NCBI GenBank assembly: GCA_016188005.1
Contig: JACPIQ010000016.1
Span: 1 to 57,531, forward strand
DNA length: 57,531 nucleotides
Source of the DNA: Candidatus Rokuibacteriota bacterium
GTDB lineage: Bacteria > Methylomirabilota > Methylomirabilia > Rokubacteriales > CSP1-6
Direction: 5' to 3'
The notes below the pieces were generated by a model. It did no database searches. It saw only the letters and a list, made by a program, of their open reading frames with translations, and was not told the DNA's origin. Positions 20,184 through 37,993 of this stretch are shown piece by piece; within the stretch, counting starts at the first letter, position 1, and the number at the start of each line of letters is the position of its first letter. The position numbers and the translations under genes are program-made.

Positions 20184-20192
20184 GGCGGCCTG

Positions 20193-20828: not shown

Positions 20829-21197
20829 TCAGAGCCTGGGCACCACGAAGTCTCGGATCTTCACCATCTCGTCACGCAGGTCTACAACATCAGCCCCGGT
20901 CGGCTTCCACATGTCGTAGCGGGCTGACCGGGAGTCATCCTTGAGTTGCCTGTACGAGTCGTGAACGTCTGTGCTGCTCTTCAAGACTGAGAGTCGCTCG
21001 AACGCCTTGTCCATGTCACCGTATCCCGAGATGTTCGTGTACCCGTACCTCGCCATCAACGCCCGCAGGTAGTGCAAGGCCGAGTAGAAGGCGGCGGTAG
21101 CAGCCCAGTCCAAGTACGGGGACTGGGCCAGGTCAAAGGTCGCGAGATACGCCTCGTTGTGCTGTGCCTGTTGAAGGTGCTGCTCCTTCGTGGGCAT
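20829..21197 (-). CDS. HEPN-like small protein
   Basis: A 122-residue all-helical protein with the pattern QAQHNEAYLATF, PYLDWAATAAFYSALHYL, and a late YRQLKDDSRSARYDMW segment seen in small HEPN-domain proteins. The classical RNase motif R-x4-6-H is not present; the R-SARY position has no His, so catalysis is uncertain. HEPN proteins often act as toxins or as defence modules. It sits between an unknown gene and a Phd-type antitoxin gene, all leftward. Confidence 0.6.
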   Translation of the reverse strand: MPTKEQHLQQAQHNEAYLATFDLAQSPYLDWAATAAFYSALHYLRALMARYGYTNISGYGDMDKAFERLSVLKSSTDVHDSYRQLKDDSRSARYDMWKPTGADVVDLRDEMVKIRDFVVPRL

Positions 21198-21215
21198 CCC
21201 AGGCGGAAGCCAGCA

Positions 21216-21695
21216 CTATTCTTCCGGGCGGTACATCACCACCCGGCCTTGCAGGTCATCCGGGACCAGCGCTCCAGCCCCGCTTTGGTCGAGCGCGACG
21301 ACGTTGAAGTCGAAAGTCATGTCCGGGTACTGCGCCATCAGGGCTCGCTCTCTCGCGTAGATCGCCTTGCGGACAACCTTGTCGCGGTGCCTGATGAATG
21401 TCCACACCAAGTTGGAATGGGGCTCCTTCGCGTGGGTCACGGCGACAACATCCGGAACCCCGAGGACGCTCCGTGCAAAGTCAACCAGTGCGGACTCCGC
21501 GTCGTTTGGCTGCGCGTGCGTGGCCGCTGGATGCGCGACAACGCCGCAGAAGTCGGAGGCCCCGATGGGCCGATAAGTCGACGGTAGGGCCTGGAGGATG
21601 TCCTCCTCGCCTGAAGACGTGGCGGTTACTCGCCGGGCGAACACGAAGCCGATGCTGTCAATGGCTCGGTGTTCGCAAGTGGCGTCGGTGCTCAT
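21216..21695 (-). CDS. Unknown protein, 159 residues
   Basis: I do not recognise this protein. It is soluble, with mixed alpha/beta character, a central block VVAVTHAKEPHSNLVWTFIR and DMTFDFNVVALDQ near the C-terminus; this resembles the layout of small proteins that handle user-annotated 'hypothetical' partners in defence-like clusters but gives no function. Its ATG overlaps the stop of the upstream DUF6941-like gene (ATGA), so the two are co-translated. The HEPN-like gene follows after 18 bp. Confidence 0.6.
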   Translation of the reverse strand: MSTDATCEHRAIDSIGFVFARRVTATSSGEEDILQALPSTYRPIGASDFCGVVAHPAATHAQPNDAESALVDFARSVLGVPDVVAVTHAKEPHSNLVWTFIRHRDKVVRKAIYARERALMAQYPDMTFDFNVVALDQSGAGALVPDDLQGRVVMYRPEE

Positions 21696-22084
21696 TTCTC
21701 GCCTCGCTTCTGGAGGAACAAGGCCCCTCTCATGATGTCCCTGTCGTTGTAGCGCAAGACGAGCGCGTACTCCCCGTCGGCCGGGAACTCAACCGCGGAG
21801 AGCGTGTAAGTCCCTTGCATCGAGTGGACGGCCTCACGTCCTGACTCGATTGGCTCTAGCTCCATCAGGCCGGTTCCATCCGGCTTGAGAAGTCTGAGTC
21901 CGACACGCCCTGGACCCGGAATCTGACACTTCCAGTAGATCGACAGCATCGGATGGACTGCTGGGAACTGAGCCGCCCAGATCCGGTCAAAGATCCCGTA
22001 CAGCGTGATTTTCCCGCTCGGATCGCGGGCAACAGCGTCACATGTCAGGAGGGCCTGTCCGACGGGCTCATTCGCCATGCCCAT
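21692..22084 (-). CDS. DUF6941-like protein
   Basis: A 130-residue beta-rich protein. The motifs ALLTCDAVARDPSGKITLYG and FDRIWAAQFPAVHP resemble the DUF6941 family of unknown function, whose members read like a C2/Ig-type sandwich. Two ATGs (22084 and 22078) are possible; neither has a strong ribosome site. It is the first gene of the leftward string that leads to the HEPN-like and Phd-like genes and lies close to the IS21 insertion, which may have cut off its original promoter region. Confidence 0.55.
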   Translation of the reverse strand: MGMANEPVGQALLTCDAVARDPSGKITLYGIFDRIWAAQFPAVHPMLSIYWKCQIPGPGRVGLRLLKPDGTGLMELEPIESGREAVHSMQGTYTLSAVEFPADGEYALVLRYNDRDIMRGALFLQKRGEK

Positions 22085-22553: not shown

Positions 22554-22650
22554 GAGATCTGAAGATTTTCAAAAGCATTCCCCCCCTTGCGTGACCTTCG
22601 GGCTATGACCCTCTCGGCCCCCGCTGGGCCTGGACTATCGCGAGGTCACG

Positions 22651-24194
22651 ATGCTCGAGGTCAAAGAGGTCCTGCGGCTCTGGCTGACCGGCGTCCGCAA
22701 GAAGCGGATCGCCGCGTCAAAACGGTCCGGCGGTACCTGCGCGCCGCGCAGGAGCATGGGCTGACGATCGCCGCCAGTCCCGACCAGCTGGACGACGGCC
22801 TGCTCGCCGCCGTTGTCAGCACGGTCCAGCCGGGTACGGGGCGCCCCCATGGCGACGGCTGGGCCGCGTGCGCGGCCCAACGCGACGTCATCGAGCGGTA
22901 CTTGCGCGCCGACGTGCGGCTGTCCAAGATCCGCACGCTGCTCCGGCGCCAGGGCGTGATGATCAGTTACCCGACGCTCCGGCGCTTCGCCATGGAGGAA
23001 CTCGGCTGGGGCCGCGCCGCGCCGACAATCCCCCTGGCGGACTGCGGCCCCGGTGAAGAGGTCCAGCTCGACACCGGCTGGATGACGCACATCGCGCCCG
23101 ACGCGCTGGGCCGGCGCCGGCGCTTCCGGGCGTGGATCTTCACCGCGGTCCTGTCCCGCTACCGGTTCGTCTATCCCGTATGGCGCGAGACCACCGAAAC
23201 AGCGATCGAGGCCTGCGAGGCCGCCTGGGCGTTCTTCCACGGCGTCTACCGCGTCCTGATCCCCGACAACACGAAGACGATCGTCCAGCGCGCGGATCCC
23301 CTCGAGCCTCGGCTCACCCCCGCCTTTCTGGAGTACGCCCAAGCGCGCGGCTTCGTCATCGACCCCACACGCGTGCGTCGGCCGCGGGACAAGGCCCGCG
23401 TGGAGCGCGCGGTGCCGACCGTCCGCGACGACTGCTTCGCCGGGGAAGTGTTGCTCGATCTCGCCCAGGCGCGCGCGCATGCCGTGCAGTGGTGCCGCGA
23501 GGACTATGGCCTGCGGCGCCACAGTCGCACGCTGCGCCCCCCGCGCGAGCACTTCGAGGCCGTCGAGCAGCCCGCGCTGCGCCCGGCCCCCACCACGGTC
23601 TACGACATCCCGCTCTGGTGCGAGCCCAAGGTCGGTCGGGATCAGCATGCCCAGGTGGCCCGCGGGCTGTACTCGCTGCCGACCCCGTATGTCGGCCATA
23701 CCCTGCGGGCCCGCGCCGACGCCACCACCGTCCGCTTCTACGTCGGCGCGGTCTGCGTCAAGGTCCACCCCCGCGTCGCGCCGGGCCAGCGCGCCTTCGA
23801 TCGCGCCGATTTCCCCGTCGACAAGACGATCTACGCCCTGCGTGACGTCGAGAGCCTGGCCCGCCGGGCCGAGGGCCACGGCCCCGCTGTCGGCCAGTTC
23901 GCCCGCGCCCTGCTGGCCGGGGACTTGCCCTGGACCCGGATGCGCCAGGCCTACGCCCTCCTCGGCTTGGTGCGGCGCTATGGCGACGCGCGTGTCAACG
24001 CCACGTGTGAGACCGCGCTCGCCGCCGAGATGCTCAGCGTCCACCGCCTCGCCCGGCTCCTCGCACTCGCGACGCCGCCCACCCCGCCGCCCCCGGCGCG
24101 CGTGCTGCCGCTCGCGCGGTATCTGCGCCCCGCCACCCACTACGCCCTGTCGCCCCCTGCCGCGGAGCGGCGGGAAGAAGGAGATCCCGCATGA
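22651..24194 (+). pseudogene. istA: istA transposase, frameshifted near the N-terminus
   Basis: The start at 22651 follows GAGG, and the first 22 codons read MLEVKEVLRLWLTGVRKKRI, the normal IstA beginning. At about 22711-22716 the frame breaks: the first frame stops at 22764, while the rest of IstA continues in another frame from RVKTVRRYLRAAQEHGL to the end. The gap falls in the helix-turn-helix, where a few codons seem to be missing. The DDE core is otherwise intact, with VQLDTGWM, a central Asp in VLIPDNTKT and a later Glu in KARVERAVP, and the C-terminal beta-barrel follows. The frame that runs back to 22587 encodes a spurious leader. The stop overlaps istB (ATGA). A sequencing error would also explain the break. 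Confidence 0.75.
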
Positions 24195-24976
24195 CCCCCG
24201 ATCCGATCTCGACCGACCTGAAGACCGTGCTGCGTCGCCTCCGGCTCTCGCGCGTCCTCGACACGCTCCCTGAGCGCCTCATCCTCGCGCGCCAGCAGCC
24301 GCTGCCCCACCAGGACTTCCTCCTCCTCATCCTCACCGACGAGGTCACGCGCCGGGACGGCCTGGCCGCCACGCTACGGGCGCAACGGGCCGGCCTCGAC
24401 CCCGGCGCCCAGCTCGAGCACTGGGACGCCACGGCCCACGTCACCTTCGATCGCGCCCTCCTCGCCGAGCTCGTCACCCTCCGCTTCCTGGAGGCGCATC
24501 ACCACGTCGCCCTCGTCGGGCCCGTCGGCGTCGGCAAGAGCTTTCTCGCCCACGCCCTGGGCCACATCGCCTGTCGCCGCGGCCACTCCGTCCTCGCCCT
24601 CCGCACGGACGCCATGCTCAAGACTCTCAAGCACGCCCGTCTCACCCAGAGTCACGAGGCCGAACTCCGCAAGCTCCTCGCCGTCGACCTCCTGATCCTC
24701 GATGACTTTGCCCTCGATGCCATGGAGGCCCAGGAGAGCCGTGACGCCTATGAGGTCTTCCTCGAACGGGACCGCGCCGGCTCGCTCATCGTCGCCAGCA
24801 ACCGCGGGCCCGATGAATGGCTCGCCACCTTCGCCGACCCCGTCCGCGCACAGAGCGCCCTCGATCGCTTCACCAGCCGCGCCTTCGACCTCGTCATCGA
24901 GGGCGAGTCCTACCGCACCCGGCTCAAGCCCAGCCTGCCGGCCCCTGCGCGGAAGGGCCCGGCCGCCCACGGATGA
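24191..24976 (+). CDS. istB: IstB, IS21 transposition helper ATPase
   Basis: A 261-residue AAA+ ATPase related to DnaC. The Walker A motif is GPVGVGKS near residue 114, Walker B is LLILDDFALD near residue 175, and sensor sequence IVASNRGPDEW follows. IstB assembles on target DNA and stimulates IstA. It is full-length and appears intact, so it could serve related IS copies in trans. Its ATG overlaps the istA stop. Confidence 0.93.
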   Translation: MTPDPISTDLKTVLRRLRLSRVLDTLPERLILARQQPLPHQDFLLLILTDEVTRRDGLAATLRAQRAGLDPGAQLEHWDATAHVTFDRALLAELVTLRFLEAHHHVALVGPVGVGKSFLAHALGHIACRRGHSVLALRTDAMLKTLKHARLTQSHEAELRKLLAVDLLILDDFALDAMEAQESRDAYEVFLERDRAGSLIVASNRGPDEWLATFADPVRAQSALDRFTSRAFDLVIEGESYRTRLKPSLPAPARKGPAAHG

Positions 24977-25924: not shown

Positions 25925-26029
25925 GCCCTGACCTTCTGCTTCGCCGGGCACGAACAACACGGTCACCGGCCCCCACGGGACCCGAATCTCCAGTGGGCGG
26001 CCTTCCTGGGCGAAGCGGGTCAGGGGCAT
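25925..26029 (-). pseudogene. Fragment related to the element gene at 38908-39363
   Basis: From 26029 leftward the sequence encodes MPLTRFAQEGRPLEIRVPW and VTVLFVPGE, closely matching MPLDQYARDGAPLEVRVPW and ETVWFVPDD of the unknown protein at 38908-39363. Only about 35 residues match; similarity stops on both sides, on the right directly at the end of the aminotransferase gene. It is a truncated copy and probably not expressed as a functional protein. Confidence 0.65.
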
Positions 26030-26048
26030 GGAAAGCAGGTGGTGTGGT

Positions 26049-27416
26049 TCAGACATCGACCAGGGCGTCTGCCACATCAAGCGCCCGGTCCAATCCCCGC
26101 ACACCCTCTGCGATCGCTTCCTCAGCGATGATCAACGGAGGCGCGACAACGAGGTGGTTGATCCACCCCATTACGTAGACACCCTGCCGCATCGCCTCAG
26201 CAACGACCGCGTTAACGACTATGGGTCTACCGGAAGCCTTGTCTGCCCGCGTGTTGAATGGCTGCCGCTGCGACCGGTCCTTGGTCAGTTCAATCGCCCA
26301 AAACAGTCCGATCCCTCGGACGTCACCGATGGACGGATGCGCCCGCTCAAGCGTGCGGAGCTGCTCGCCGAGGTAAAGCCCAAGCTGTCGCGCCCGGCCA
26401 ATCAGGTTCTGAGTCTGATACTCGCGGATCGCGGCGATCGCCGCGGCGAGCGCAACCGGGTGGCCCTCGTATGTGTGCCCGTGAGGGAGCGCGTGGTCAT
26501 CGAAGTACGCCGCGACGTCGCGCGACACGGCCGTTACGCCGAGAGGTACGTACGCGCCCGTCACCCCCTTGGCGGTGGTAAGGATGTCGGGAACCACGCC
26601 CCAGTGGTTGACCGCGAACCACTCGCCCGTGCGCCCCCAGCCCGTCATCACCTCGTCCGCGATCAGGAGAACCCCGCGGCGGGTGCAGATCTCTCGCAGC
26701 CTCGCGAGGTACCCCTCGGGTGGAACCAGCACACCGTTGGTCCCAACGACCGGCTCCACCACGACCGCCGCGATATCCCCCTCGTGCTCGATCATGTACT
26801 CCACGTACTTCGCGCACGCGAGATCGCACGCCGGGTAGTGCCAGCCGAACGGACACCGGTAACAGTACGCATCCGGGGCGAACCGCACCCCCGCCGCGAT
26901 GCCTGAAGGATCCGCGCCCCACCGGCGATGGTCTCCCGTCGCGGCAATCGAGCCTGCCGTTGATCCGTGATAGGAGTGGTAGCGGGAGATGATCTTCGAG
27001 CGCCCCGTAACCGCGCGCGCAATCTTGAACGCAGCCTCATTCGCCTCCGTCCCGGACGTGGAGAAGAAGAACCGGTCCAGCCTGCCGGGCATCACTGCCG
27101 CGACGCGCCGCCCGGCCTCGGCACGAACCTCCATGGCAAACGCGGGGCTGAGGTACGCGCCCCGGCGCGCCTGCTCGGCGATCGCCTCGGCAATGGCGGC
27201 ATTCCCGTGGCCGAGGTTGCTGCACACGAGCTGTGACGAGAAGTCGAGGTACCGCCGACCCGCCGCGTCGACGAAGTGGCACCCCTCGGCCTGTACCACG
27301 TGTAGTGGTGTCCAGTCCCGCTGCTTGCTCCAGGTGGCGAACGTGTAGGCCGCCGTGGCGGCCCCGGTGTCCGCGGACGGTGTACACATCGAGGACGTCC
27401 CCTCGCGATCGTTCAT
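26049..27416 (-). CDS. Class-III PLP aminotransferase (omega-amino acid/pyruvate type)
   Basis: A 455-residue fold-type I aminotransferase. The PLP phosphate-binding segment is FFFSTSGTEANEAAFKIAR, the aspartate that contacts the pyridine is in LLIADEVMTGWGRTGEW, and the Schiff-base lysine is in TTAKGVTGAYVPLG. Relatives convert beta-alanine, taurine or other omega-amino acids with pyruvate or 2-oxoglutarate. In the reductive pyrimidine route the last step is exactly such a transamination of beta-alanine. The ATG at 27416 overlaps the stop of the hydrolase gene (ATGA); the longer open frame is rejected. An unusual Cys cluster, CYRCPFGWHYPACDLAC, lies mid-protein. Confidence 0.87.
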   Translation of the reverse strand: MNDREGTSSMCTPSADTGAATAAYTFATWSKQRDWTPLHVVQAEGCHFVDAAGRRYLDFSSQLVCSNLGHGNAAIAEAIAEQARRGAYLSPAFAMEVRAEAGRRVAAVMPGRLDRFFFSTSGTEANEAAFKIARAVTGRSKIISRYHSYHGSTAGSIAATGDHRRWGADPSGIAAGVRFAPDAYCYRCPFGWHYPACDLACAKYVEYMIEHEGDIAAVVVEPVVGTNGVLVPPEGYLARLREICTRRGVLLIADEVMTGWGRTGEWFAVNHWGVVPDILTTAKGVTGAYVPLGVTAVSRDVAAYFDDHALPHGHTYEGHPVALAAAIAAIREYQTQNLIGRARQLGLYLGEQLRTLERAHPSIGDVRGIGLFWAIELTKDRSQRQPFNTRADKASGRPIVVNAVVAEAMRQGVYVMGWINHLVVAPPLIIAEEAIAEGVRGLDRALDVADALVDV

Positions 27417-28057
27417 GGCGAGCGGAACGCGCGCCACTCGCTCACCAGCGCGTCGGCCCGGGTCACCGTCGCGAAGTACCGCGCAAGCGTTTCGAGCGCC
27501 GACGCGTGAAGATGGCGAATACTCGCGGCTACGCAATCCTCCGGGATGAGCACGAAGTAGTCCCGCATGAATGCCGCGCGCGCGGTTGAGTCCACGCAGA
27601 CGTTGGTCGACATCCCGCTGAGAACGACCGTCTGGATTCCCAGCGCGCGGAGCCGACAGTCCAGATCCGTGTTGAGAAAGCCGTCGAACCGTGTCTTCTC
27701 GAGGACTATGTCCTCGGCGCGGGCATCCAGCTCAGGGGCCAGCGCCGCACCCCAGCTTCCCTTCCAGACGACCGGCACGCGGTCCCGACCCTGTTCACCT
27801 CGCTTTTCCAGGATCGGCGGGGACGACGCGTCGTCGCTGTTCACATGCCGAACGTAGATGATCTTCACGCCCTCCTGACGCGCGTCGGCGACCAACCGGA
27901 CTGCCCGCCGGAGCATCTCGCGCAGCGGGGCCAGGTCAACACCAAGCCGGGCCAGCCCACCCGCCGGGCTCACGAAATCGTTCTGGAGGTCGATCACGAG
28001 CAATGCGCTGTGTCGAGGATCGTACTTCACGTGTCTCACGGTGGGCTTCACGGACAC
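27413..28057 (-). CDS. Isochorismatase-type cysteine hydrolase
   Basis: A 214-residue alpha/beta hydrolase of the isochorismatase/N-carbamoyl hydrolase family. The catalytic triad is visible as Asp in LLVIDLQNDF, Lys in LEKTRFDGF and Cys in GMSTNVCVDSTARAAF. Close relatives split N-carbamoylsarcosine, ureidoacrylate (RutB) or biuret, all ureido or amide C-N bonds, which fits this operon. GTG 28057 has GAGG upstream; TTG 28078 and GTG 28051 are alternatives. The stop overlaps the aminotransferase start. Confidence 0.82.
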   Translation of the reverse strand: MSVKPTVRHVKYDPRHSALLVIDLQNDFVSPAGGLARLGVDLAPLREMLRRAVRLVADARQEGVKIIYVRHVNSDDASSPPILEKRGEQGRDRVPVVWKGSWGAALAPELDARAEDIVLEKTRFDGFLNTDLDCRLRALGIQTVVLSGMSTNVCVDSTARAAFMRDYFVLIPEDCVAASIRHLHASALETLARYFATVTRADALVSEWRAFRSP

Positions 28058-28067
28058 TTCAGCCGCC

Positions 28068-29114
28068 TCACGCTTCAACGGCCCACTCCATGGTGTCGTC
28101 GCCGGTAAACAGGCTCTTCGTCCGCACGACGCGGATCGCCGGATTGAAACCCCTGCCGATCCCCACCTCCATCAGGCCGAAGAGCTCATCGAACTCCCGA
28201 AGGCGTGCCGGTGCCAGCTTCATCTCGAGGAAAGTCTCCAAGAATGGGTAGCGGGTGGCGCGGAACATCCAACGTTTCTGCCTCTGTTCGATCAAGCGAA
28301 CATAGGGCAGGCGCAACCAGAATGCGTGGGCCAAGTCGGACAGGGAGTTTCCGCTGGCGCGTCGCGCCAAGAGCGCGCCTTCATCCCTGAAGTTGTCGCC
28401 CCGGACAACCGCCGCGATCTCCGCCACCGAACACCCCCGTAATGCCTCCCAGCGTTCAGCCGCCAACACGAAGTCGAGGAAGTGTCGGGCTCTCAGCCGC
28501 TTGAAGAGGGGGAAGCAGTCGTCGCATTGAGGATGGGGCAACTTCGGGCTCACCGGCGGGATCGGCCCGGGCCCCCGCTGGTCGGCCTGGCCGGCGGTGA
28601 TGGCCACATCGCCACTCTCGACATGGACCCACCGGCAGGTGCGGTCGCCGTGCATCAGGTTGGTTGGCTGGACGACCCTCACCTGCGAGTTGAAGCCGGT
28701 GACCGTCTGCTGGTCCGCGATGCATGTCAACTCGCTCAACCGTCTGAGGCGATCGCCGGATACGCCGATATCGATGAGGCCGTCATAGAACGCGCAGCCG
28801 GTCGCTTCCACCACCATGAGGCCCGGACGGCGCTCCACCCTCCGGACGTTCGGGAACCGCGCCCAGTAGAGCCGATGAAACGTGTCGAGGTCTTGGTCGG
28901 GAGCCGCGGCCGCCATCAGTAAGCCCCGCGTGTGCGCCGATTCGAGACGAATGCGACGGGCCACGTCCCAAGGATCGGCCTCCTGCCGGTCGAGCGCGTG
29001 CAGAAGATCCACGAAGTCGGCGAAATAGCGAGCAGCCAGCCACGCGTACGTGGCCAGGGCCGGACAGGCCGGACACTCAGGGAAACGCAACGCCGCGGGG
29101 CTCACCAGCGTCAC
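28068..29114 (-). CDS. Tandem L-2-amino-thiazoline-4-carboxylate (ATC) hydrolase-like protein
   Basis: A 348-residue protein made of two similar halves. Half one (about 1-165) ends with GFNSQVRVVQPTNLMHGD and CRWVHVE; half two (about 190-348) ends with GFNPAIRVVRTKSLFTGDD and MEWAVE. This ending is characteristic of the ATC-hydrolase family, whose founding member opens the ring of L-ATC to N- or S-carbamoylcysteine in pseudomonads. Typical family members are single domain, so the fusion is unusual, and the halves have diverged. Both keep a Cys-containing N-terminal stretch (CPACPALATYAW and CDDCFPLFKRL). A carbamoyl product would suit the adjacent ureido-type hydrolases. The GTG start overlaps the nitrilase stop as GTGA. 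The function is inferred from a family resemblance. Confidence 0.7.
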   Translation of the reverse strand: MTLVSPAALRFPECPACPALATYAWLAARYFADFVDLLHALDRQEADPWDVARRIRLESAHTRGLLMAAAAPDQDLDTFHRLYWARFPNVRRVERRPGLMVVEATGCAFYDGLIDIGVSGDRLRRLSELTCIADQQTVTGFNSQVRVVQPTNLMHGDRTCRWVHVESGDVAITAGQADQRGPGPIPPVSPKLPHPQCDDCFPLFKRLRARHFLDFVLAAERWEALRGCSVAEIAAVVRGDNFRDEGALLARRASGNSLSDLAHAFWLRLPYVRLIEQRQKRWMFRATRYPFLETFLEMKLAPARLREFDELFGLMEVGIGRGFNPAIRVVRTKSLFTGDDTMEWAVEA

Positions 29115-29950
29115 GTTGCCACGCTCGATGGTTCCAGGCTTAGAGCGCCTGTCAGCACGTGGTACGCAGCGGGACGGATGTCCTCCATGACGGGGAATTC
29201 CTGCCGGAGTCTCCGGACACGCGCCAGGTCGACCCGAGCAACAGCGATCCCTGGGTCCTCGCCGGCGTTGGCAATCACAGCGCCCCAGGGGTCAACAACC
29301 ACGGAGTTGCCGAGATAGCGGCGGCCGTTGACGGTTCCCGCGAAGTTTGCAGCGGCCAGGTACACTTGGTTCTCGACGGCGCGTGCCCGGGTGAGAATCT
29401 GCCAGTGCTCGAGACGCGGGTATGGCCAAGCAGAGGGGACAGCGAGGACTTCTGCGCCGGCCGCGGTCAGAGCCCGGCATGCCTCGGGGAAGCGGAGGTC
29501 GTAGCAAATCGCCAGTCCGATGCGACCCAGCGGGGTATCGACCACCGTCAGGCTCCGTCCCTCCTGAAACACCCCCCGCTCGCGGGAGCCGTAGCTGTTG
29601 AATAAGTGGACCTTCCGGTACTTGCCGAGAAGGGTTCCGGTCGGCCCAATCAACACCGTGGTATTGAAGAGCGCCGCGCCGTCGCGCTCGACGAGGCTGC
29701 CACAGCACAGGACGATGCTACGCGCTGCGGCGGCCTCCGCGAGGCGATCGACGGTCGGACCAGGAATCGGCTCGGCGATTTCCGGGTAGCGCGCGTAGGC
29801 GCCGGCGGCCGTGAACACCTCGGGAAGCACGACGAGCGCCGGAGCTGGCGGTGCCTCGGCGAGCCAGGCAAGGGCGAGATCCAGGTTCCCCTCCTTCTCG
29901 CCGGGAGTCGGCTGGAACTGCACCACGGCCACCGTGAAAACCTTCGTCAC
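29111..29950 (-). CDS. Carbon-nitrogen hydrolase (nitrilase superfamily)
   Basis: A 279-residue enzyme with the Glu-Lys-Cys triad in LVVLPEVF, GKYRKVHLF and GLAICYDLRFPE. The sequence falls in the amidase/omega-amidase and N-carbamoyl-amino-acid amidase part of the family; beta-ureidopropionase is a relative. It probably hydrolyses the ureido or amide product of the dihydropyrimidinase. The start is GTG 29950 because GGAGGTGGAGC sits immediately upstream; the longer frame to 29971 lacks this. A second, unrelated amide hydrolase is encoded two genes downstream. Confidence 0.88.
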   Translation of the reverse strand: MTKVFTVAVVQFQPTPGEKEGNLDLALAWLAEAPPAPALVVLPEVFTAAGAYARYPEIAEPIPGPTVDRLAEAAAARSIVLCCGSLVERDGAALFNTTVLIGPTGTLLGKYRKVHLFNSYGSRERGVFQEGRSLTVVDTPLGRIGLAICYDLRFPEACRALTAAGAEVLAVPSAWPYPRLEHWQILTRARAVENQVYLAAANFAGTVNGRRYLGNSVVVDPWGAVIANAGEDPGIAVARVDLARVRRLRQEFPVMEDIRPAAYHVLTGALSLEPSSVAT

Positions 29951-29972
29951 GCTCCACCTCCGTTCGCGCAAG

Positions 29973-31343
29973 TCACCACCCGTGGCGGTCCATTCTCACG
30001 AACGTCCCGCTCCCGCTCGTGCCGACAACCTGCCCGCCCTCCATTACTACCTCGCCACGGACCATCGTCAGGCGAGGCCAGCCCCGAACCCGGCGACCGG
30101 CGAACGGCGTGAAGTCCGACGTCCCGACGAAGCCCCGGGGGTCGATCTCGCGCTCCTCCTCCGGGTCGACGAGGACCAAGTCGGCGTCGGCCCCGACCGC
30201 GATCGTCCCCTTCCGCGGGTAAAGGCCGTAGAGCCGCGCCGTGTTCGTGCTGAGAAGCGCCACGAGTTGCTCGAGACGGAGGCGGCCAGCCAGGACGCCC
30301 TCCGTGATCAAGAGCGGAAGCATCGTCTCAAGACCGGGAAACCCGGGCCGAGTGCTCCAGATGTCGTCCCCAAGCTTCCCCGAGAGGTGGTTGGAACAGT
30401 GGTCACTGCCCAGACTCTCGATCGTTCCATCACCCAGCGCCGCCCAGAGTGCTGCCTGGTCATGGACGCCCTTGATCGCCGGCGTGATCTTGGCAAGCAA
30501 AGGGTGGGACTGGGAAGCCCCATCCGAACTCAGGAGCAGGTAGTGCGGACAGGTCTCCCCACTGATCCTGACACCTCGCGCGCGAGCCGCTGCGAGCGTT
30601 CGGACGCCCAGCGCCGAACTGATGTGCAGGACGTGGACCGGCGCCCCAACAACGCCGGCGAGGAATGCGACCCGCTGGATACTTTCCGCCTCGATGAAGT
30701 CCGGACGCGCATCCGCCCAGCCTTGCAGGTCCCGACGCCCCCTCGCGCGGTGGAGCAGAAGTTCGGCGAGATCTCCGTTCTCGGCATGGACAAGCACGAG
30801 CCCGTCCAGCGCCCGCGCAGCCTCAAGCGTCTCAAACAGGACGGCGTCGTTGGCCGAGGTAATACCGAGGCGCTTGCCGTCCTCTCCTCGGTACGCCATG
30901 AAAACCTTGAACGTCCGCACGCCGGCGGCCACGAGCGCGGGCAGTTCCAGCACGTGGTCTCGGTTCATGACTGCGACGTGAAAGCCGACGTTCACCAGGG
31001 CACTGGCTTCGACTTCGGCGGCGCATCGCTTCAGTACGGGCATCGCCGCGCCCGCCTCGATCACGAAGCTAAGCAGGGTCGTGACCCCTCCTGCGACGGC
31101 CGCTCTCGTCTCCGTCTCGCAGTCCCGCTCGAACGGCAGTACGAGGCCCAAGTGGACGTGCGGATCGATCATGCCGGGCAGAAGCCACTGCCGCTTCGCG
31201 TCAATCGTCCGGCGCGCCCTCGGCAGGCTCGTGTCGCCGCCGACAGCCGTGATACGACCACCGGCAACCGCGACACCACCGGACACGACGCCCCCCGGCG
31301 TGACCATCTGCGCGTTACGGATGACGCAATCCGCCATGCTCAT
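29973..31343 (-). CDS. Dihydropyrimidinase / hydantoinase
   Basis: A 456-residue metal-dependent cyclic amidohydrolase. Zinc ligands are seen in DPHVHLG, the carbamylated Lys in VRTFKVFMAY, His in LVHAENGD and LHISSALG, and the metal Asp in LGSDHCSNH. The enzyme opens hydantoin, dihydrouracil or allantoin rings. It is translated from an ATG at 31343 that overlaps the stop of the dehydrogenase gene (ATGA); the open frame upstream is read-through. The pairing of a PreA-like reductase with this enzyme is the core of the reductive pyrimidine pathway. D-hydantoinase or allantoinase specificity cannot be excluded. Confidence 0.88.
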   Translation of the reverse strand: MSMADCVIRNAQMVTPGGVVSGGVAVAGGRITAVGGDTSLPRARRTIDAKRQWLLPGMIDPHVHLGLVLPFERDCETETRAAVAGGVTTLLSFVIEAGAAMPVLKRCAAEVEASALVNVGFHVAVMNRDHVLELPALVAAGVRTFKVFMAYRGEDGKRLGITSANDAVLFETLEAARALDGLVLVHAENGDLAELLLHRARGRRDLQGWADARPDFIEAESIQRVAFLAGVVGAPVHVLHISSALGVRTLAAARARGVRISGETCPHYLLLSSDGASQSHPLLAKITPAIKGVHDQAALWAALGDGTIESLGSDHCSNHLSGKLGDDIWSTRPGFPGLETMLPLLITEGVLAGRLRLEQLVALLSTNTARLYGLYPRKGTIAVGADADLVLVDPEEEREIDPRGFVGTSDFTPFAGRRVRGWPRLTMVRGEVVMEGGQVVGTSGSGTFVRMDRHGW

Positions 31344-32605
31344 GTGGCCGAGCCGACCGGTGCCTCGTCGGCTGCTCGCGCCAACTGCCACGCATCGGTG
31401 GGGCAGTTCACCACGCAGAGGTTGCATCCCGTGCACAGCGCTTTGTCGAGGACCAATCGCTGTCCCGTGATCGACAACGCCATGCATGTCGTCTCGGCAC
31501 AGATCCCGCACAGCGTGCACTTGTTCTCCTCGAGCAGGGGGTACGCGCGTGCGAAATCGTCGTACTCCACCTCCCCGATATACCGATGGCTCGCGCCAAC
31601 GAGCTCCTCGACCGAGCCGAACTCCTGCTCTTCCAAGTACCGCTGAAGGAAGCTCTTCGAGTGGCGGATCAGCTTCACGCCGCGCCAGAGGATCCCCGAG
31701 GAGAACTGCACCGTCCGGGCCCCCAACAACATCGCCTCAACGGCATGCTCCGGGTCCAGGATCCCCCCCACCGCTGACACGGGAATCCGGACGTGCAACG
31801 AGATGGCGGCGACAAACTTGTACATGAGAAAGCGATCCCACGGGCCAAAGGCCGCGGAGAAGTTGAACCGCTTGGTAAAGGGATAGGCCGACCGCCCCCG
31901 CGTCCGCAGGTCGGGTGGGGCGATCGAGACCGGCGCGTTAATGGCCGAAATGGCGTCGGCCCCTGCGTCCCTGATGCCCTGGGCCACATGAATCAACTGG
32001 GGGTAACCGATCTCGGGTGTCATCTTCACCATAACCGGCACATCCACGGCCTTCTTGACCGCGCGGGTGATCTCCCGCAGCAGCGACGGAACCTGACCTA
32101 CGAGGAACCCTGGAGCACGGGGAAACTCGCCGTCTCCATCGAACTCGCCGGCGCTGAGCGGGCACGACGTGTCGAGCTCGAGCATGTTCGCGCCCTCGGC
32201 CACCATCTCCCGCGCGATCGACGCCCACGTCGCCGGGTCGGCGGACCCCCCCATCACGTTGGCGATGATGGGCACACCGATTCCTCGGAGGCGGTACAGC
32301 AGCTCGAGTCCAAAGTCCCGATTGCAGAGGTTCTTCACGTTCAGCGCGAGCCCGAAGAGGCCGATCTGGTGGAAGGGTGGCCGGCCACGCGCCGCGATCA
32401 TCCGGCGGGCAGGCTGCATCCGGGATCCGTCGGAGCCGGGTAAGGACAGGATACAGGGGGTGCAGACTGCCCCGGCTCCCGCGTCCACATGACGTCGCAA
32501 GAGGTCGGCCATGCCCTGCGGGTCGACCCGGGACACCGACACCTGCGACGCGACGAAAAAGGGGTTGTCGAAGTGAATCCCGCAGAAGTCGACCGCCAGG
32601 CTCAT
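31340..32605 (-). CDS. preA: PreA-like dihydropyrimidine dehydrogenase with 2x[4Fe-4S] tail
   Basis: A 421-residue protein: an FMN-binding dihydroorotate-dehydrogenase barrel (about 1-330) and a ferredoxin tail with CTLCGICAETTC and CTGCNLCVVNCP. This is the architecture of E. coli PreA, the pyrimidine-reducing subunit. The barrel keeps PFFVASQVSVS near the start, LELDTSCPLSAG at the active-site loop and SAVGGILDPEHA at the phosphate site. AAGGAG precedes the ATG. PreA normally needs the NAD(P)H-oxidising partner PreT; no such gene is in this window, so electrons may come from a ferredoxin or a distant partner. Confidence 0.88.
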   Translation of the reverse strand: MSLAVDFCGIHFDNPFFVASQVSVSRVDPQGMADLLRRHVDAGAGAVCTPCILSLPGSDGSRMQPARRMIAARGRPPFHQIGLFGLALNVKNLCNRDFGLELLYRLRGIGVPIIANVMGGSADPATWASIAREMVAEGANMLELDTSCPLSAGEFDGDGEFPRAPGFLVGQVPSLLREITRAVKKAVDVPVMVKMTPEIGYPQLIHVAQGIRDAGADAISAINAPVSIAPPDLRTRGRSAYPFTKRFNFSAAFGPWDRFLMYKFVAAISLHVRIPVSAVGGILDPEHAVEAMLLGARTVQFSSGILWRGVKLIRHSKSFLQRYLEEQEFGSVEELVGASHRYIGEVEYDDFARAYPLLEENKCTLCGICAETTCMALSITGQRLVLDKALCTGCNLCVVNCPTDAWQLARAADEAPVGSAT

Positions 32606-32649
32606 CTACCAACTCCTTGGAAGGCGTCTCGCCCGATCCGGCCTCACCA

Positions 32650-33321
32650 TCAGAAGGACGGCGGGGTGATGACCCAGATGGAGGTCGCGGGCTCGTCCCC
32701 CGGGTTGTTGTACCAGTGCGGAATGACGCTCTGGTAGGAGATGCTGTCGCCGGTTTCGAGGACGTAGGTTTCGTCCCCGAGATGCACCTCAAGCCTCCCG
32801 GACAGCAGCACGCCGCATTCCTCGCCCTCGTGCGAAAACGGCTGTTCCTTGTTTGACGACATGTGGGGGGGCAGTTCCACGTACACGACTTCCAGCTTCC
32901 GGTAAACATCGGGTGTCAGCAACTCGTAGATCGGTCCCTCGACCGCCGCCGCGTCCCTGGGAATGAGCCGCTTGCGCTCGTGGCGCCGCACCACAACCCC
33001 CTCCGTCCGTGGCCCTTCGAAGAACGTCCCGATCGGCACGTCGAGGGCATAGGCGATTTTTGCAATCGTGAGGAACGAAGGGTTGCCGACACCACGCTCG
33101 AGCTGGCTCAGGAGCCCTGCCGAGAGACTCGCCTTCTCGGCTAGCCCCTCCAGGGAAAACCCTCGCGCCGCGCGAAGCTCCTGGAGCTTCGCGGCGAACT
33201 TCGCGAGGACTGCCGTCGCTCCCCCGGGATCAGGCAGGCGCCCGGCGCCTGGGGCCTTCCGCCCCTCGACGTCCTCAACCCCCTTTCCCGTCGCTGAAGA
33301 TTCCTGCCCCTCGTTGCTCAT
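32650..33321 (-). CDS. XRE-cupin transcriptional regulator
   Basis: A 223-residue regulator: an acidic, Gly/Ala-rich leader of about 35 residues, an XRE helix-turn-helix (about 42-97; FSLEGLAEKASLSAGLLSQL), and a C-terminal cupin (about 140-220; HEGEECGVLLSGRLEVHLGD). PuuR-type regulators share this build and bind a small ligand in the cupin. It is inside the catabolic operon, starting in the amidohydrolase stop (ATGA), so it is made with the enzymes it probably controls. A palindrome over the operon promoter (37931-37946) is a candidate target. Confidence 0.9.
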   Translation of the reverse strand: MSNEGQESSATGKGVEDVEGRKAPGAGRLPDPGGATAVLAKFAAKLQELRAARGFSLEGLAEKASLSAGLLSQLERGVGNPSFLTIAKIAYALDVPIGTFFEGPRTEGVVVRRHERKRLIPRDAAAVEGPIYELLTPDVYRKLEVVYVELPPHMSSNKEQPFSHEGEECGVLLSGRLEVHLGDETYVLETGDSISYQSVIPHWYNNPGDEPATSIWVITPPSF

Positions 33322-34679
33322 CGAGCCTGAGGCCCTTCCCCCGTCATCGCCCGTCGTGTCACGTCCCGCAGTCCGCGTTCCCCGGTGATCCTCCTCATCC
33401 GCGCGATTAGGTCGTCGATCCGGACCCCCTCCACGGTGCCGCCGCTCACGATCGCCTCACCATCGACGAACACATCGTCAACGTCCTGCCCGGTGCAGCA
33501 ATACACTAGGTTGCCGTAGGGGTTGTTCCAGGGCTGTACGTGGAGACTGCGTGTCCTGATCGTGATGACGTCGGCGCGCTTCCCCACCTCCAGGCTGCCA
33601 ATTCGCTGTTCAAGCCCGAGCACCTGCGCTGCCTTGCTCGTCGCCAATCGGACGACTTCCTCGGCTGGCAGGAACATCGGATCGGCGCTCTGCACCTTGC
33701 CCAACAGGGCGGCGCACCGCATCTCTTGGAAGAGGTCCATGCCGTTATTCGATGGCGCGCAATCCGTGCCAAGCGCCATGGAGACACCCGCGCGGACCAT
33801 CTCGTCAACCGGCGCGATCCGCGCCTCGATCTTCGCGTTGCTGACAGGACAATGCGCGACGTGCGTTCCAGTCCCGGCGAGCAAGGAGACTTCCTCCGTC
33901 GTCACGTAGAGGCAGTGGGCGGCGATCACGTCCGGGCCGAGGAAGCCAATGTCATACAGGTAGGAGACCGCGCCCATGGCTCCGCGAGCCCTGACGGCAT
34001 CCACTTCCTCCTGCGACTGCGCCACGTGGATGAACATCTTGGCACCCGTATCGTCGGCCAAGCGCCGGATCGTCCGGAGAAGCTCGGTCGAGCACGTGTC
34101 GGTTGCGTGGGGACCGAACCCCGCGCTGATGCGGTTCTCGCCGGTCACCCCCCAGCGGCTGATAAGCGCCTCCGCCTTGTCGAGCTCCGGTCTCCGCCCT
34201 ACATCAAGCAACGACGTCGTCACGACCGCGCGGATACCACTTTCCACGAAGGCATCCACGATCGCGTCCATGTGCGCGTAGCGGTCGGCCACGCACGTAA
34301 CGCCGTTGCGCAGCATCTCGTAGCACGCCGCCAGCGCAGCGGTTTTCAAATCGTCTGGCGTCACCCGTGCGTCGAGGGGCCAGATGTAATCCGATAGCCA
34401 CGTTCCGCGCGGGGCATCGTCGGCCAACCCCCGGAACAGGTTCATGCAGGCGTGCGTATGAACATTGACGAGCCCGGGCATGACGACGTGATCGCGGACG
34501 TCGCGGATCTCCGCGTCGATGATCTCCGGGGCTCCCTCCTGAGGCCCCACGTAGGCGATGCGAGAACCCTCCATGAGCAGGGCACCCGGATCGAAGATGT
34601 CGCCCGAGGCGTTCATCGTCATGACCGTTCCGCCCCTCAGCACCCGCCACATCCTGTGCCCCTTGCTCCCACCGCTCAT
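33318..34679 (-). CDS. Amidohydrolase, ATZ/TRZ-MtaD type (deaminase/chlorohydrolase family)
   Basis: About 453 residues in the Zn/Fe amidohydrolase barrel. Metal sites are in VNVHTHACMN, FIHVAQSQEE, IAAHCLYV and LGTDCAPSNNGMD. The family deaminates or dechlorinates N-heterocycles, such as guanine, cytosine, S-adenosylhomocysteine and s-triazines. First in enzyme order after the importer, it could remove an exocyclic amino group from the incoming compound before ring reduction. ATG 34679 is chosen; ATG 34652 has a somewhat better ribosome site (AAGGGG) and is a real alternative. The stop overlaps the regulator start. Confidence 0.85.
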   Translation of the reverse strand: MSGGSKGHRMWRVLRGGTVMTMNASGDIFDPGALLMEGSRIAYVGPQEGAPEIIDAEIRDVRDHVVMPGLVNVHTHACMNLFRGLADDAPRGTWLSDYIWPLDARVTPDDLKTAALAACYEMLRNGVTCVADRYAHMDAIVDAFVESGIRAVVTTSLLDVGRRPELDKAEALISRWGVTGENRISAGFGPHATDTCSTELLRTIRRLADDTGAKMFIHVAQSQEEVDAVRARGAMGAVSYLYDIGFLGPDVIAAHCLYVTTEEVSLLAGTGTHVAHCPVSNAKIEARIAPVDEMVRAGVSMALGTDCAPSNNGMDLFQEMRCAALLGKVQSADPMFLPAEEVVRLATSKAAQVLGLEQRIGSLEVGKRADVITIRTRSLHVQPWNNPYGNLVYCCTGQDVDDVFVDGEAIVSGGTVEGVRIDDLIARMRRITGERGLRDVTRRAMTGEGPQAR

Positions 34680-34698
34680 CGCCACGCCACCGACCCCC

Positions 34699-35655
34699 TC
34701 ATGCCTTGAGCCCGGACAGCGCCACCCCTTTGATGAACTGACGCTGACCGACAAGGAAGATGAGGAAGATCGGCAGCGAGGTGATGACGGCAGCCGCCAT
34801 CAGCAGATGCCAGTCTGCAAAGTACTGGTCTTTGTAACTGCTCAGACCCAGCTGGAGTGTCCGCATCTCAGGTTTGGTCGTCAGGATCAGCGGCCACAGA
34901 AATGCATTCCACGACTCCGTAAACGTGAACATGCCCACCGTCGCGAGCGCTGGCTTGGCCAGCGGGAGATAGACGCGACAGAAGGCCTGGAACTCCGAAC
35001 ATCCATCGATCCGCGCCGCGTCCAGCAGATCCGGGGGCAGCATGCTGAAGAATTCACGCATGATGTACACTCCCAATGTCGTCGCCATCCCCGGAAAGAT
35101 CAGGGCACTATACGTGTCGATCAGACCCGTCCCACCGGTGCCCAAGAGGTCGTTCCCGCCCGCCAGCGGAACCGCGCGGAACATGATAAACAGCGGGATC
35201 ATCGTCACCTGCACGGGGATCATCACCGTCCCGAGAATGAAGGAGAACAGCACGCCGCGTCCCGGGAAGCGCAGCCGCGCGAAGGCATACCCGGCAAGTG
35301 AGTCCAGGATCAAGACGCTCAGTGTCGAGACGCCTGCCACGATAAGGCTATTAATGAAGTACCGCGAGAAGTCGAGCTTGACCAGCGCCTCCCGGTAGTT
35401 GTCAACGCGCAGGGCGCTGGGGATCAGCCGCGGAGGCCAGGCGAACACCTCGGCGGCGGGCGTGACCGATGTCGAGAGCATCCACATGAACGGGCTCACC
35501 ATCACGACCGCCCCGCCCATGAGTACGACGTAGAGCAGGAGCCGGCCAATACGCTTGAGCACGAGGGGCCTGAGCGCGACGCAGCGCGAATGCTGCCCGT
35601 GCCCGTCCGCCAGCACGAGAATGTCGGGCCGTCCCGGGCCCGTCACGCCAGTCAT
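34699..35655 (-). CDS. Carbohydrate-type ABC permease (MalG-like)
   Basis: A permease of about 318 residues with six membrane helices and the EAA loop DAARIDGCSEFQAFCRVYLP. The C-terminal GQRQFIKGVALSGLKA is standard for this subunit. ATG 35655 has GGGGAG six bases upstream; ATG 35661 is in frame two codons earlier. The soluble N-terminal 30 residues are long for the family. It pairs with the MalF-like subunit, 13 bp upstream. Confidence 0.88.
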   Translation of the reverse strand: MTGVTGPGRPDILVLADGHGQHSRCVALRPLVLKRIGRLLLYVVLMGGAVVMVSPFMWMLSTSVTPAAEVFAWPPRLIPSALRVDNYREALVKLDFSRYFINSLIVAGVSTLSVLILDSLAGYAFARLRFPGRGVLFSFILGTVMIPVQVTMIPLFIMFRAVPLAGGNDLLGTGGTGLIDTYSALIFPGMATTLGVYIMREFFSMLPPDLLDAARIDGCSEFQAFCRVYLPLAKPALATVGMFTFTESWNAFLWPLILTTKPEMRTLQLGLSSYKDQYFADWHLLMAAAVITSLPIFLIFLVGQRQFIKGVALSGLKA

Positions 35656-35668
35656 GCGCATCTCCCCG

Positions 35669-36556
35669 CTAGTACCGAAACGCCCGCGCCGACAGGCGGA
35701 GGCTCAGAAGCGAGGCGGTGAGGATGATCGCGAAGAGCACGAACGCCATGGCCGACGCGTAGCCCATCTTGAAGTACTGAAACCCGTTCCGGTAGATCTC
35801 GAACACCACGGATGTCGTCGCATCGGCAGGGCCGCCCGCCGTCAGCACGAAGATCTGGTCGAACACCTGCAGGGCAAAGATCCCGGTCATCAGCCAGATC
35901 AGCAACGTGGTCGGCAGCAGAAGGGGCCACGTGACGCTCCAGAACCGCCGCCATGCATTCGCGCCGTCGACACGGGCGGCTTCGTAGAGATGAGCGGGGA
36001 TCCCCTGGAGACCCGCCAGGTAGATGACGATGTTATAGCCCAGGTTCTTCCAGATCCCAATGAGGATGATGCTGGGCAGCGCAAGCGCGGGATCATCGAG
36101 CCAGCCCTGGCGTGGAATGCTGAGGAGGCTCAGGGCGTAGTTCAGCACGCCGAACTGCGCGTTGAAGATGTAGAGCCAGATCATCGAGACCGTAACCATC
36201 GATGCGACGGCGGGGATGTAGTAGGCCGTGCGGAAAACCGCCAGCCCCTTGATCTTCTGGTCGAGCATCATCGCGAACACCAGCGCCAGCACGGTGGCCG
36301 GGAATACGGTGCCCACCGTGTAGAGGACTGTGTTCCAGACCGCGCGGCGGAAGATGTCGTCGTCGAGGAGCCTCAGGTAGTTCGCCAACCCGACCCACCG
36401 CGGCGCGTCCGTGATCGAGTATTCAGTGAAGCTGAGGTAGAGGGCCCCGAGGGCCGGCACCACGCGCACCACGAGGAACAGCGCCACCATCGGCAGCACA
36501 AAGGCGAGTCCCGCCAGCGCCTCGGGCTTCCGTCGCAGTTCTCGCGCAAGACTCAT
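35669..36556 (-). CDS. Carbohydrate-type ABC permease (MalF-like)
   Basis: A permease of about 295 residues with six membrane helices and the EAA loop EAARVDGANAWRRFWSVTWP. The first helix begins near residue 17 (LAGLAFVLPMVALFLVVRVV). ATG 36556 is supported by GGAAGGA; GTG 36580 is also in frame. It follows the binding-protein gene and forms the membrane pore with the MalG-like subunit. No ATPase is encoded in the operon, so a shared MsmX/UgpC-type ATPase elsewhere would be needed. Confidence 0.88.
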   Translation of the reverse strand: MSLARELRRKPEALAGLAFVLPMVALFLVVRVVPALGALYLSFTEYSITDAPRWVGLANYLRLLDDDIFRRAVWNTVLYTVGTVFPATVLALVFAMMLDQKIKGLAVFRTAYYIPAVASMVTVSMIWLYIFNAQFGVLNYALSLLSIPRQGWLDDPALALPSIILIGIWKNLGYNIVIYLAGLQGIPAHLYEAARVDGANAWRRFWSVTWPLLLPTTLLIWLMTGIFALQVFDQIFVLTAGGPADATTSVVFEIYRNGFQYFKMGYASAMAFVLFAIILTASLLSLRLSARAFRY

Positions 36557-36605
36557 CCGCGATGGTCCTTCCACCCGCACGGTCAGGTACGGTCGCTATG
36601 CGCGC

Positions 36606-37898
36606 TTACTGGGCGAGCAGATTGTTGACCTTCTGCGCCGCCGCGTCGAGGGCGTCCTTCGCAGACCGTCCTTTGAGGTAGACCTCATCGAGCGCGGAGG
36701 TCAGGATGCGAGAGATTTCCGCCCACTTCGGATGCTTCGGCAGTGGGCGCCCGACCTTCGCGACTTCGAGGAACTGCGACACCCACGGATTCGTCCGGAC
36801 GTAGTCCGACGTCATGGCCGCCTTCAGCGCGGGCAGCGTGTCCTCTCCGGCGAGGAACTGGACCACGATGTCCGTGTTCATGGTCATGAACCTCAGGAGT
36901 TTCAGCGCCTCGACCGGGTACTTGGTCCCCTTCGAGATCCCGAACATCTCGCCCGACAATTCCATCGCGGGGACTTTGTTGATCGGCGGCACCGCGATCC
37001 CGATGCTGTCCCGCAGCTGGGGCGCGTCGCGCATAACCCCGCGCGTCGCGTTATTCGAAACGAGCATCGCGACCTTGCCTTGCATGAAGTCAACAGGGTC
37101 GTTCTTGATGCTGCCCGGCTTGTCCACTTTGTACCTGTTCAAGAAGTCGGCGAGGAACTCGACGGAGGCGACGCCCTCTTGACTGTTGAAGGTCGCCTTC
37201 TTCCCGGCGGCATCGAAAACGTCGCCCCCATTGGACCAGAGGAAGGCGAGCCACATCTGCACCGTCTTGTACGGATGACTCGTTGGAATCCAGAAGCCGA
37301 CCCGTTCGATGTTGCCCGATGCGTCCCGCTTGACCAGCTTCTGCGCGTACTGGCGCAAGTCGTCCCATGTCCGCGGCGCGCGGTCGTATCCCGCCTCCTT
37401 CAGGAAGTCCTTTCGGTAGAAGAACGGGCGCGGGCGCATTGCCCAGGGGATCGCATACACGCGGTTGTCCCAGACACCGCTGTCGAGCGCGTTCTCGGCA
37501 AAGTCGGCGCGGTTGATGTGTTGGTCGAGAGGAGCGAGGATTCCGTGAACGGCCCAGGCCGCGACGTCCACACTATAGAAGCTGAGGACGTCAGGTCCGG
37601 CACCCCCGGCAAACGCCGTCAGGATCTTCTGCTGGTACACCGTCCAGTCGAGTGTGAGCGCCTCGACCTTGATCCCGGGATTCGCCTCCTCGAAGCGCTG
37701 CACCACTCCCGGCAAGACCCGCTGGTGGTACGGACCTGACACCCAGAGCTTGAGGGTCACTGGCTTTGCCTGAGCGACTCTCACGTCGAACGCGCTAGGC
37801 GCACCCTGCGACGTCCCCACGCCCACGGCAAGAAACATCCCCAGCAGTCCTACAAACAGAAGACCCGCAAGTACCATCGCTCGACGTGCATTGCTCAT
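36606..37898 (-). CDS. ABC substrate-binding protein, family 1 (sugar type)
   Basis: A 430-residue exported binding protein. AGGAGG with 7-bp spacing fixes ATG 37898. The signal peptide covers about residues 8-33, and the mature part starts near VAQAKPVTLKLWVSGPYHQ. Family-1 features are RFEEANPGIKVEALTLDW and GAGPDVLSFYSVDVAAW. Family 1 binds oligosaccharides, glycerol phosphates or nucleoside-like ligands. The operon suggests a nucleobase, nucleoside or other cyclic ureide here. It is the promoter-proximal gene, which gives high expression of the binder. Confidence 0.88.
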   Translation of the reverse strand: MSNARRAMVLAGLLFVGLLGMFLAVGVGTSQGAPSAFDVRVAQAKPVTLKLWVSGPYHQRVLPGVVQRFEEANPGIKVEALTLDWTVYQQKILTAFAGGAGPDVLSFYSVDVAAWAVHGILAPLDQHINRADFAENALDSGVWDNRVYAIPWAMRPRPFFYRKDFLKEAGYDRAPRTWDDLRQYAQKLVKRDASGNIERVGFWIPTSHPYKTVQMWLAFLWSNGGDVFDAAGKKATFNSQEGVASVEFLADFLNRYKVDKPGSIKNDPVDFMQGKVAMLVSNNATRGVMRDAPQLRDSIGIAVPPINKVPAMELSGEMFGISKGTKYPVEALKLLRFMTMNTDIVVQFLAGEDTLPALKAAMTSDYVRTNPWVSQFLEVAKVGRPLPKHPKWAEISRILTSALDEVYLKGRSAKDALDAAAQKVNNLLAQ

Positions 37899-37930
37899 CG
37901 CCAGTCCCTCCTGCCCGGTTTCTGTAGCGT

Positions 37931-37946
37931 CTTCATTATAGTGAAG
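37931..37946. promoter_or_regulatory. Operator-like palindrome before the catabolic operon
   Basis: CTTCATTATAGTGAAG is an inverted repeat with one mismatched pair, centred about 40 bp upstream of the binding-protein start and just downstream of the promoter -10 element. A bound regulator would block initiation or clearance. The XRE-cupin protein of the operon is the natural candidate. Confidence 0.5.
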
Positions 37947-37961
37947 AAGCGTCAAGGGGAA

Positions 37962-37989
37962 AATATATTGAAGGCTTTTCACTTGTCAA
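37962..37989 (-). promoter_or_regulatory. Sigma-70-like promoter of the catabolic operon
   Basis: On the minus strand TTGACA (37989-37984), a 16-bp spacer and TATATT (37967-37962) form a good promoter 64 bp before the first gene. The surrounding 60 bp are strikingly AT-rich compared with the rest of the window. Confidence 0.65.
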
Positions 37990-37993
37990 TCGG

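Follow-up and report, generated by a model that had tools for sequence, protein, structure and literature searches.

ATC hydrolases are known from a three-step route in which DL-ATC is converted to cysteine by a racemase, a hydrolase and an amidohydrolase, as set out in the cited part of the account (PMC10821248). In Sinorhizobium meliloti, a single-domain member of the ATC_hydrolase family (PF14196) is encoded on pSymA, flanked by an Asp/Glu racemase-family gene on one side and an M20 hydrolase on the other, and these neighbours fit the route as outlined there (PMC10821248). According to the cited section of one study, the archaeal domain MetOD1 resembles domains of the HNOB, V4R and ATC hydrolase types and has a group of three conserved cysteines in common with the last two (PMC5847659). 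The DmpR sensor domains are described as an interlocked homodimer with Zn bound by Cys151/Glu172/Cys177/Cys185 (excerpted in PMC7264223). For Asgard TRAPPC3, which has the same fold, the cited passages state that two N-terminal helices make the dimer, that the cysteines bind Zn as in PoxR, with Zn tying the sheet to a helix and shaping the cavity, and that the protein resembles the eukaryotic TRAPPC3/C6 heterodimer; the Zn site is replaced in mouse TRAPPC3, and Zn in this fold can be structural and dispensable (PMC10933270).

The DNA analysed here (hereafter the window) is a stretch of 57,531 nucleotides from a Candidatus Rokuibacteriota contig (JACPIQ010000016.1), and it encodes a protein in which two such domains stand in tandem (Table 1). 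The gene is a single uninterrupted frame with 348 codons from a GTG start and 407 codons from stop to stop, and its GC content by codon position (0.66/0.48/0.81) reflects a coding-type codon bias.

Table 1. Features of the tandem gene and of the surrounding gene run, in window coordinates.
Feature	Position	Strand	Match or basis
Class III aminotransferase	26049..27536	(-)	PF00202, 5.7e-94
Isochorismatase-fold amidase	27413..28078	(-)	PF00857, 8e-48; best matches RutB/biuret-hydrolase-like, below cut-off
Tandem ATC_hydrolase protein (P0001), predicted V4R fold, 348 aa	28068..29114	(-)	
C-half, residues 177-348, none of the three family cysteines kept	28071..28586	(-)	family profile, BLASTP
CxxC of C-half (CDDC, residues 197-200)	28515..28526	(-)	
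N-half, residues 1-176, all three family cysteines kept	28587..29114	(-)	PF14196 match 51-161, family profile
C160, family cysteine 3 (24/24 relatives)	28635..28637	(-)	
C131, family cysteine 2 (region Cys in 23/24 relatives)	28722..28724	(-)	
C107, family cysteine 1 (24/24 relatives)	28794..28796	(-)	
CxxC of N-half (CPAC, residues 14-17)	29064..29075	(-)	
Carbon-nitrogen hydrolase (nitrilase superfamily)	29111..29971	(-)	PF00795, 5.6e-62
Dihydropyrimidinase/hydantoinase-like amidohydrolase	29973..31520	(-)	NCBIfam dihydropyrimidinase, 1.9e-103, below cut-off
PreA/dihydroorotate-dehydrogenase-like flavoprotein with C-terminal 4Fe-4S ferredoxin part	31340..32605	(-)	
XRE-cupin regulator	32650..33321	(-)	
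TRZ/ATZ-type deaminase/amidohydrolase	33318..34754	(-)	
Two permeases and a solute-binding protein (36606..37982) of an ABC importer	34699..37982	(-)	

The two halves of the protein are clearly related to each other. BLASTP between them gave 67.8 bits and 32% identity over 163 columns (E = 2e-19 in a one-sequence search), the alignment spans almost the full length of both, and their local alignment score of 249 was not reached by any of 1000 shuffles (57.6 +/- 10.7). The first-pass annotation had pointed to a shared ending, GFN..(I/V)RVV.....F/M.GD, and to a Cys-containing start in both halves. Both features are present in the translation, the ending as GFNSQVRVVQPTNLMHGD (residues 140-157) in the N-half and GFNPAIRVVRTKSLFTGD (residues 322-339) in the C-half, and the similarity lies far above that of the shuffles. 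The CxxC carried by each half is absent from all 24 single-domain relatives as cut, one of which (L013) is a fragment without its start. A real internal duplication within a known superfamily, with clearly asymmetric halves, is well supported at the level of sequence.

PF14196 is the sole Pfam match in the tandem and passes its curated cut-off of 28.1 bits when the whole protein is searched (30.7 bits, E = 6.3e-7, residues 51-161), whereas the match falls below that cut-off in the whole-genome version of the search (25.9 bits) and for the cut-out N-half (25.6 bits). The cut-out C-half has no PF14196 match in the Pfam search. A profile of 18 single-domain members made without the tandem (L008, L010, L018, L019, L027 and the fragment L013 omitted) gave 27.9 bits for the C-half and 14.0 bits for the N-half, with 8.3 bits as the best of 2000 shuffles. 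When BLASTP was run on a small local set, the C-half matched the single-domain member L004 (3.8e-9), whereas L022 was matched by the N-half (8e-6). In the reverse direction, a profile of the two halves alone (E <= 0.01) retrieved single-domain proteins in 7 of the 93 other genomes of the class, and every place that it matched is also matched by PF14196. The possibility raised beforehand, that profiles would place only one half in the family, therefore applies to Pfam alone, which recovers the N-half only, but not to the family profile, BLASTP or the reverse profile, which place both. Both halves belong to the PF14196 superfamily by these searches, and the proposed tandem duplication of an ATC-hydrolase-family domain is borne out, since both exceed the 2000 shuffles with the family profile and the reverse profile finds PF14196 proteins. 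Among solved structures, sequence searches found no PF14196 relative (best E = 0.29), and the members of this family carry an annotation named after one reaction.

PF14196 is found in 18 of the 95 genomes of the class, own genome included, at 21 places with one match per frame. The family had been described as normally single-domain, which agrees with the 20 places in 17 other class genomes, each with one match per frame, and with four further members of 161-175 aa. Together these make up the 24 relatives: the 20 class places that lie outside the window, three proteins encoded on named plasmids (two of Azospirillum, one of Sinorhizobium), and L027 from a viral contig. Their starts were chosen by hand, and L021 was trimmed at its start. 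Pfam searches with nine of them returned PF14196 in 9/9 and additionally DUF6125 in two.

In a maximum-likelihood tree of 25 rows (L013 omitted), the N-half and the C-half are sisters (support 99/98) on a common stem of 1.68, indicating that the tandem arose by duplication within its own lineage; a fusion of two old paralogues is ruled out by this grouping. The branches of the two halves are long (1.72 for the N-half and 0.99 for the C-half), and the deeper placement of these rows is left unresolved by the tree. Only the own genome, one of 95 in the class, has a full-length match to the tandem, two other matches being single-domain proteins; a phylum-level search covers the same 95 genomes. 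We found no tandem orthologue, which could have shown selection for the pattern, in the plasmid searches, one of which gave a single match at E = 3, nor in viral contigs, nor in genome contigs by two pattern scans, which require exact short peptides and may omit the own genome, so that distant tandems could escape them. The literature searched for the family or for the tandem held no description of a tandem ATC_hydrolase protein.

The halves differ in their cysteines. Two cysteine columns are invariant among the single-domain relatives (24/24 each), and 23 of the 24 have a third Cys somewhere between these two, L014 being the exception. The column of this second cysteine shifts by subtype, with 14/24 in a fixed column and 22/23 counted by region without L008; L008 has LSC, which brings the count to 23/24. 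The N-half keeps 3/3 of the conserved cysteines and the C-half 0/3, with Y289, G313 and M342 in their places. The C-half retains the canonical R288, E293, P325 and R331, positions at which G, D, S and Q stand in the N-half. Among 29 columns conserved at >=90% in 12 canonical members, seven are kept by the N-half alone, two by the C-half alone, two by both and 18 by neither; among 17 columns conserved at >=70% in the 24 relatives, the corresponding numbers are six, three, three and five. The canonical signature of the 12 members (TRCRYAE, LSCxRD, GFNP and RTQTxMxGAxxCDFR) is kept in neither half. With 18 of the 29 canonical columns gone from both, we do not regard either half as a canonical ATC hydrolase, and the tandem is unlikely to catalyse the ATC reaction, in which L-ATC is hydrolysed to S-carbamoyl-L-cysteine.

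The suggestion that one half is catalytic and the other structural is supported indirectly. It is favoured by the cysteine count, but the canonical motif is in neither half and metal in this fold can be structural or lost. Likewise, since this fold can do without its Zn site, which may be structural, as the cited part of the TRAPPC3 work reports (PMC10933270), the loss of cysteines is no proof of an inert C-half. The halves might instead build one active site across the pair, with cysteines from the N-half and an arginine/glutamate side (R288, E293, R331) from the C-half. The positions R101, E106, P134 and R140 (L027 numbering), kept in the C-half only, and C102, C122, D125 and C151, kept in the N-half only, are in line with such an arrangement, but over all conserved columns the complementarity of losses is at chance level (Fisher p = 0.63 for the 17 columns and 0.92 for the 29 columns), which makes a composite site doubtful. 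Two separate working sites, acting on two different or pseudo-symmetric substrates, seem more improbable still: GFN and a subsequent Gly are retained in both halves, and Azospirillum has two divergent PF14196 paralogues with cysteines in one gene run, but the C-half has none of the three cysteines, which almost all 24 relatives retain. For the pseudo-symmetric substrate that had been put forward as the other option, we found nothing in favour, and the one-sided cysteine loss argues against two equal sites.

The tandem gene lies in a run of 11 genes on the minus strand whose frames mostly abut or overlap (Table 1), and we infer a single operon whose genes serve a single pathway. The true start of the aminotransferase is likely to be near 27416, as inferred from its translation. 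Motifs expected for their families are present in the nitrilase-type, isochorismatase-fold and hydantoinase-type proteins, and we take these to be the catalytic ones. On its gene content, the run (26049-37982) looks built for the breakdown of nitrogen-ring compounds. No importer ATPase gene is present among its frames, and racemase, carbamoyl-amidohydrolase (M20) and PreT-like genes are all absent from the 11 genes.

Two described pathways were considered for the run and rejected. None of the NCBIfam matches listed for it (the best 25 for four proteins) reached the curated cut-off. The PreA match has 170.5 bits against a cut-off of 335, and the dihydropyrimidinase matches have 346.7 against 647 and 323.8 against 393; with these listed matches below their cut-offs and no PreT-like partner, a strict reductive uracil/pyrimidine catabolism operon was rejected. 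Among the matches listed, the PreA-like protein is 27-29% identical to plasmid PreA proteins. An ergothioneine-type hydantoin pathway was discarded as well (231 bits against a cut-off of 650).

The run differs from most of its surroundings in base composition. GC is 0.63-0.68 at 25-38 kb, compared with about 0.69-0.76 to the left and 0.70-0.76 at 38-49 kb; it is low at 49-53 kb as well (0.66-0.68). Third-position GC of the run genes is 0.78-0.87, below that of most frames listed left of 20 kb. An IS21-type pair is located at 22587-24976, not far from the run. Collinearity of the same-genus genome G090 with the window extends over 11600-20565 (89-93% identity), is interrupted near 15.3-15.5 and 16.7-18.1 kb, and ends there. 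Two other same-genus genomes, compared with the DNA at 26000-38100 (E <= 1e-10), match only within the aminotransferase gene, at other places, and the PreA-like gene occurs in 1 of 95 class genomes at E <= 1e-30. Horizontal acquisition of the run is the simplest reading of these compositional and comparative data. It could be asked whether the tandem is merely a duplicate decaying after such a transfer, with no defined job. The full-length match in the own genome only (among 95 class genomes), the long branches (1.72 and 0.99) and the many changes at conserved columns would be expected of a decaying gene, but the frame is uninterrupted with coding bias and the neighbours have their expected motifs, so that we regard decay as highly improbable.

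Several other elements were observed in the window. At 38148-43605, two diverged copies of a clostripain-like (Peptidase_C11) region (74-83%) flank a 915-aa gene with DUF3854/DUF3631, and a further clostripain-like copy is located on another contig (G000:C4). The frame at 38151-38489, for which Pfam gave no match, resembles a remnant. A pair of 41-nt direct repeats is found inside a larger inverted repeat at 39373-39569, next to the 3' end of the 915-aa gene, which is on the minus strand. Moreover, an element of ~150 bp with inverted ends (15295-15452) is dispersed over many contigs of the own genome and of two same-genus genomes. Adjoining the IS21-type pair, genes at 20832-22084 encode a HEPN-domain protein, an unmatched protein and a DUF6941 protein; this trio is possibly, as a guess, a toxin-antitoxin or defence-type unit. 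A Kelch-repeat gene (17185-18153) is missing at the collinear place of G090 (window 16681-18138).

For the fold, AlphaFold2 on the tandem alone gave a pLDDT of 37, which is not usable for a pocket in either half. A canonical member, that of L027, was modelled from an alignment whose only extra rows were the two halves, and reached a pLDDT of 81.3 and a pTM of 0.71; two of its five models were good (81.3 and 78.4) and three poor (51-55). With this canonical-relative model, all 14 Foldseek matches at E <= 0.001 were V4R sensor domains of MopR/PoxR. VIA-align gave Z scores up to 11.3 for Bet3/TRAPP, 10.8 for DmpR and 10.3 for PoxR, and H-NOX matches at 6.5-7.8, too weak to use alone; by the tool's own note, mostly helical folds can score near 13-14 without kinship, through their arrangement alone. 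The modelled V4R/Bet3 fold of the canonical relative agrees with the sequence argument made for MetOD1 in the cited section (PMC5847659).

These structural matches also bear on a non-catalytic reading, in which the tandem would be a V4R-like pseudo-dimer with a ligand-binding or sensory role, holding or sensing an intermediate of the pathway, and would have lost hydrolysis. The closest solved folds (MopR, PoxR, DmpR and Bet3) are ligand sensors and non-enzymes, and the 18 of 29 canonical columns gone from both halves point the same way. However, the tandem sits within an enzyme gene run that already has an XRE-cupin regulator, and Pfam detects no effector or DNA-binding domain in it. We regard a purely binding role as possible, though on the unlikely side.

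Our best reading of the tandem is a pseudo-dimer in one chain, of which only one half bears metal, a reading that draws on the model of the relative and on analogy. In the explanation that we prefer, with a probability of roughly 0.5, a single homodimeric domain of the ATC_hydrolase family (V4R/Bet3 fold) would have been duplicated head to tail to give this one-chain pseudo-dimer. The N-half would be the working half, with its three-cysteine, predicted metal site kept, while the C-half, its site lost, would mainly be the dimer partner that shapes or closes the N-half cavity. The protein may then act as an enzyme or substrate-binding partner in a hydrolytic operon for an imported N-heterocycle. 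Such a pathway could proceed by deamination, PreA-like reduction, ring opening by the hydantoinase, decarbamoylation or deamidation by the nitrilase-type and isochorismatase-fold enzymes, and transamination. By analogy with ATC hydrolase, the substrate of the tandem would most likely be a cyclic amidine or ureide-like intermediate, which it would hydrolyse; an enzymatic role is unproven.

A bolder version appears unlikely and is offered as speculation. The pair of CxxC motifs might meet at the pseudo-twofold axis as a four-cysteine metal clasp (Zn or Fe-S), with the three-cysteine site in the N-half only; this two-metal architecture would be new to the ATC-hydrolase/V4R superfamily, and the protein might open a non-ATC ring in an unrecognised N-heterocycle breakdown pathway. 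A natural one-chain pair with the three family cysteines in one half only offers a direct test of which half needs them, of the role of the partner, and of catalytic versus structural cysteines. It also draws attention to a gene cluster with no obvious substrate.

Compared with the single-domain members (S. meliloti pSymA, Azospirillum and L027), both tandem halves are homologous to them and the N-half keeps the three cysteines, whereas the tandem has two domains, a CxxC in each half and most of the canonical signature gone. The S. meliloti neighbourhood is similar in including a hydrolase (M20), together with a racemase-family gene, but the tandem is accompanied by hydantoinase-, nitrilase- and isochorismatase-type genes. 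The closest parallel to two family members standing together is Azospirillum L026, where two different PF14196 members (2760-3272 and 7962-8465) occur in one plasmid gene run and surround an ABC importer whose annotation is of the branched-chain amino acid type. However, each is a gene of its own, the two differ in subtype and both have cysteines, and on the tree neither falls with a tandem half, so that a split tandem is ruled out for this pair. The V4R domains of MopR/PoxR/DmpR share the fold modelled for the canonical relative of the tandem, and a cysteine metal site and dimerisation are reported for them in the portions cited above; unlike them, the tandem is without an AAA+ or DNA-binding domain, and its cysteine spacing (107/131/160) differs from that of the DmpR ligands. 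In TRAPP heterodimers, an occupied pocket is carried by only one subunit. Bet3-Trs33 and TRAPPC3-C6 are, moreover, pairs of unequal subunits of one fold, as described in the cited passages (PMC10933270), but the tandem is bacterial, has no trafficking role, and would hold both partners in one chain.
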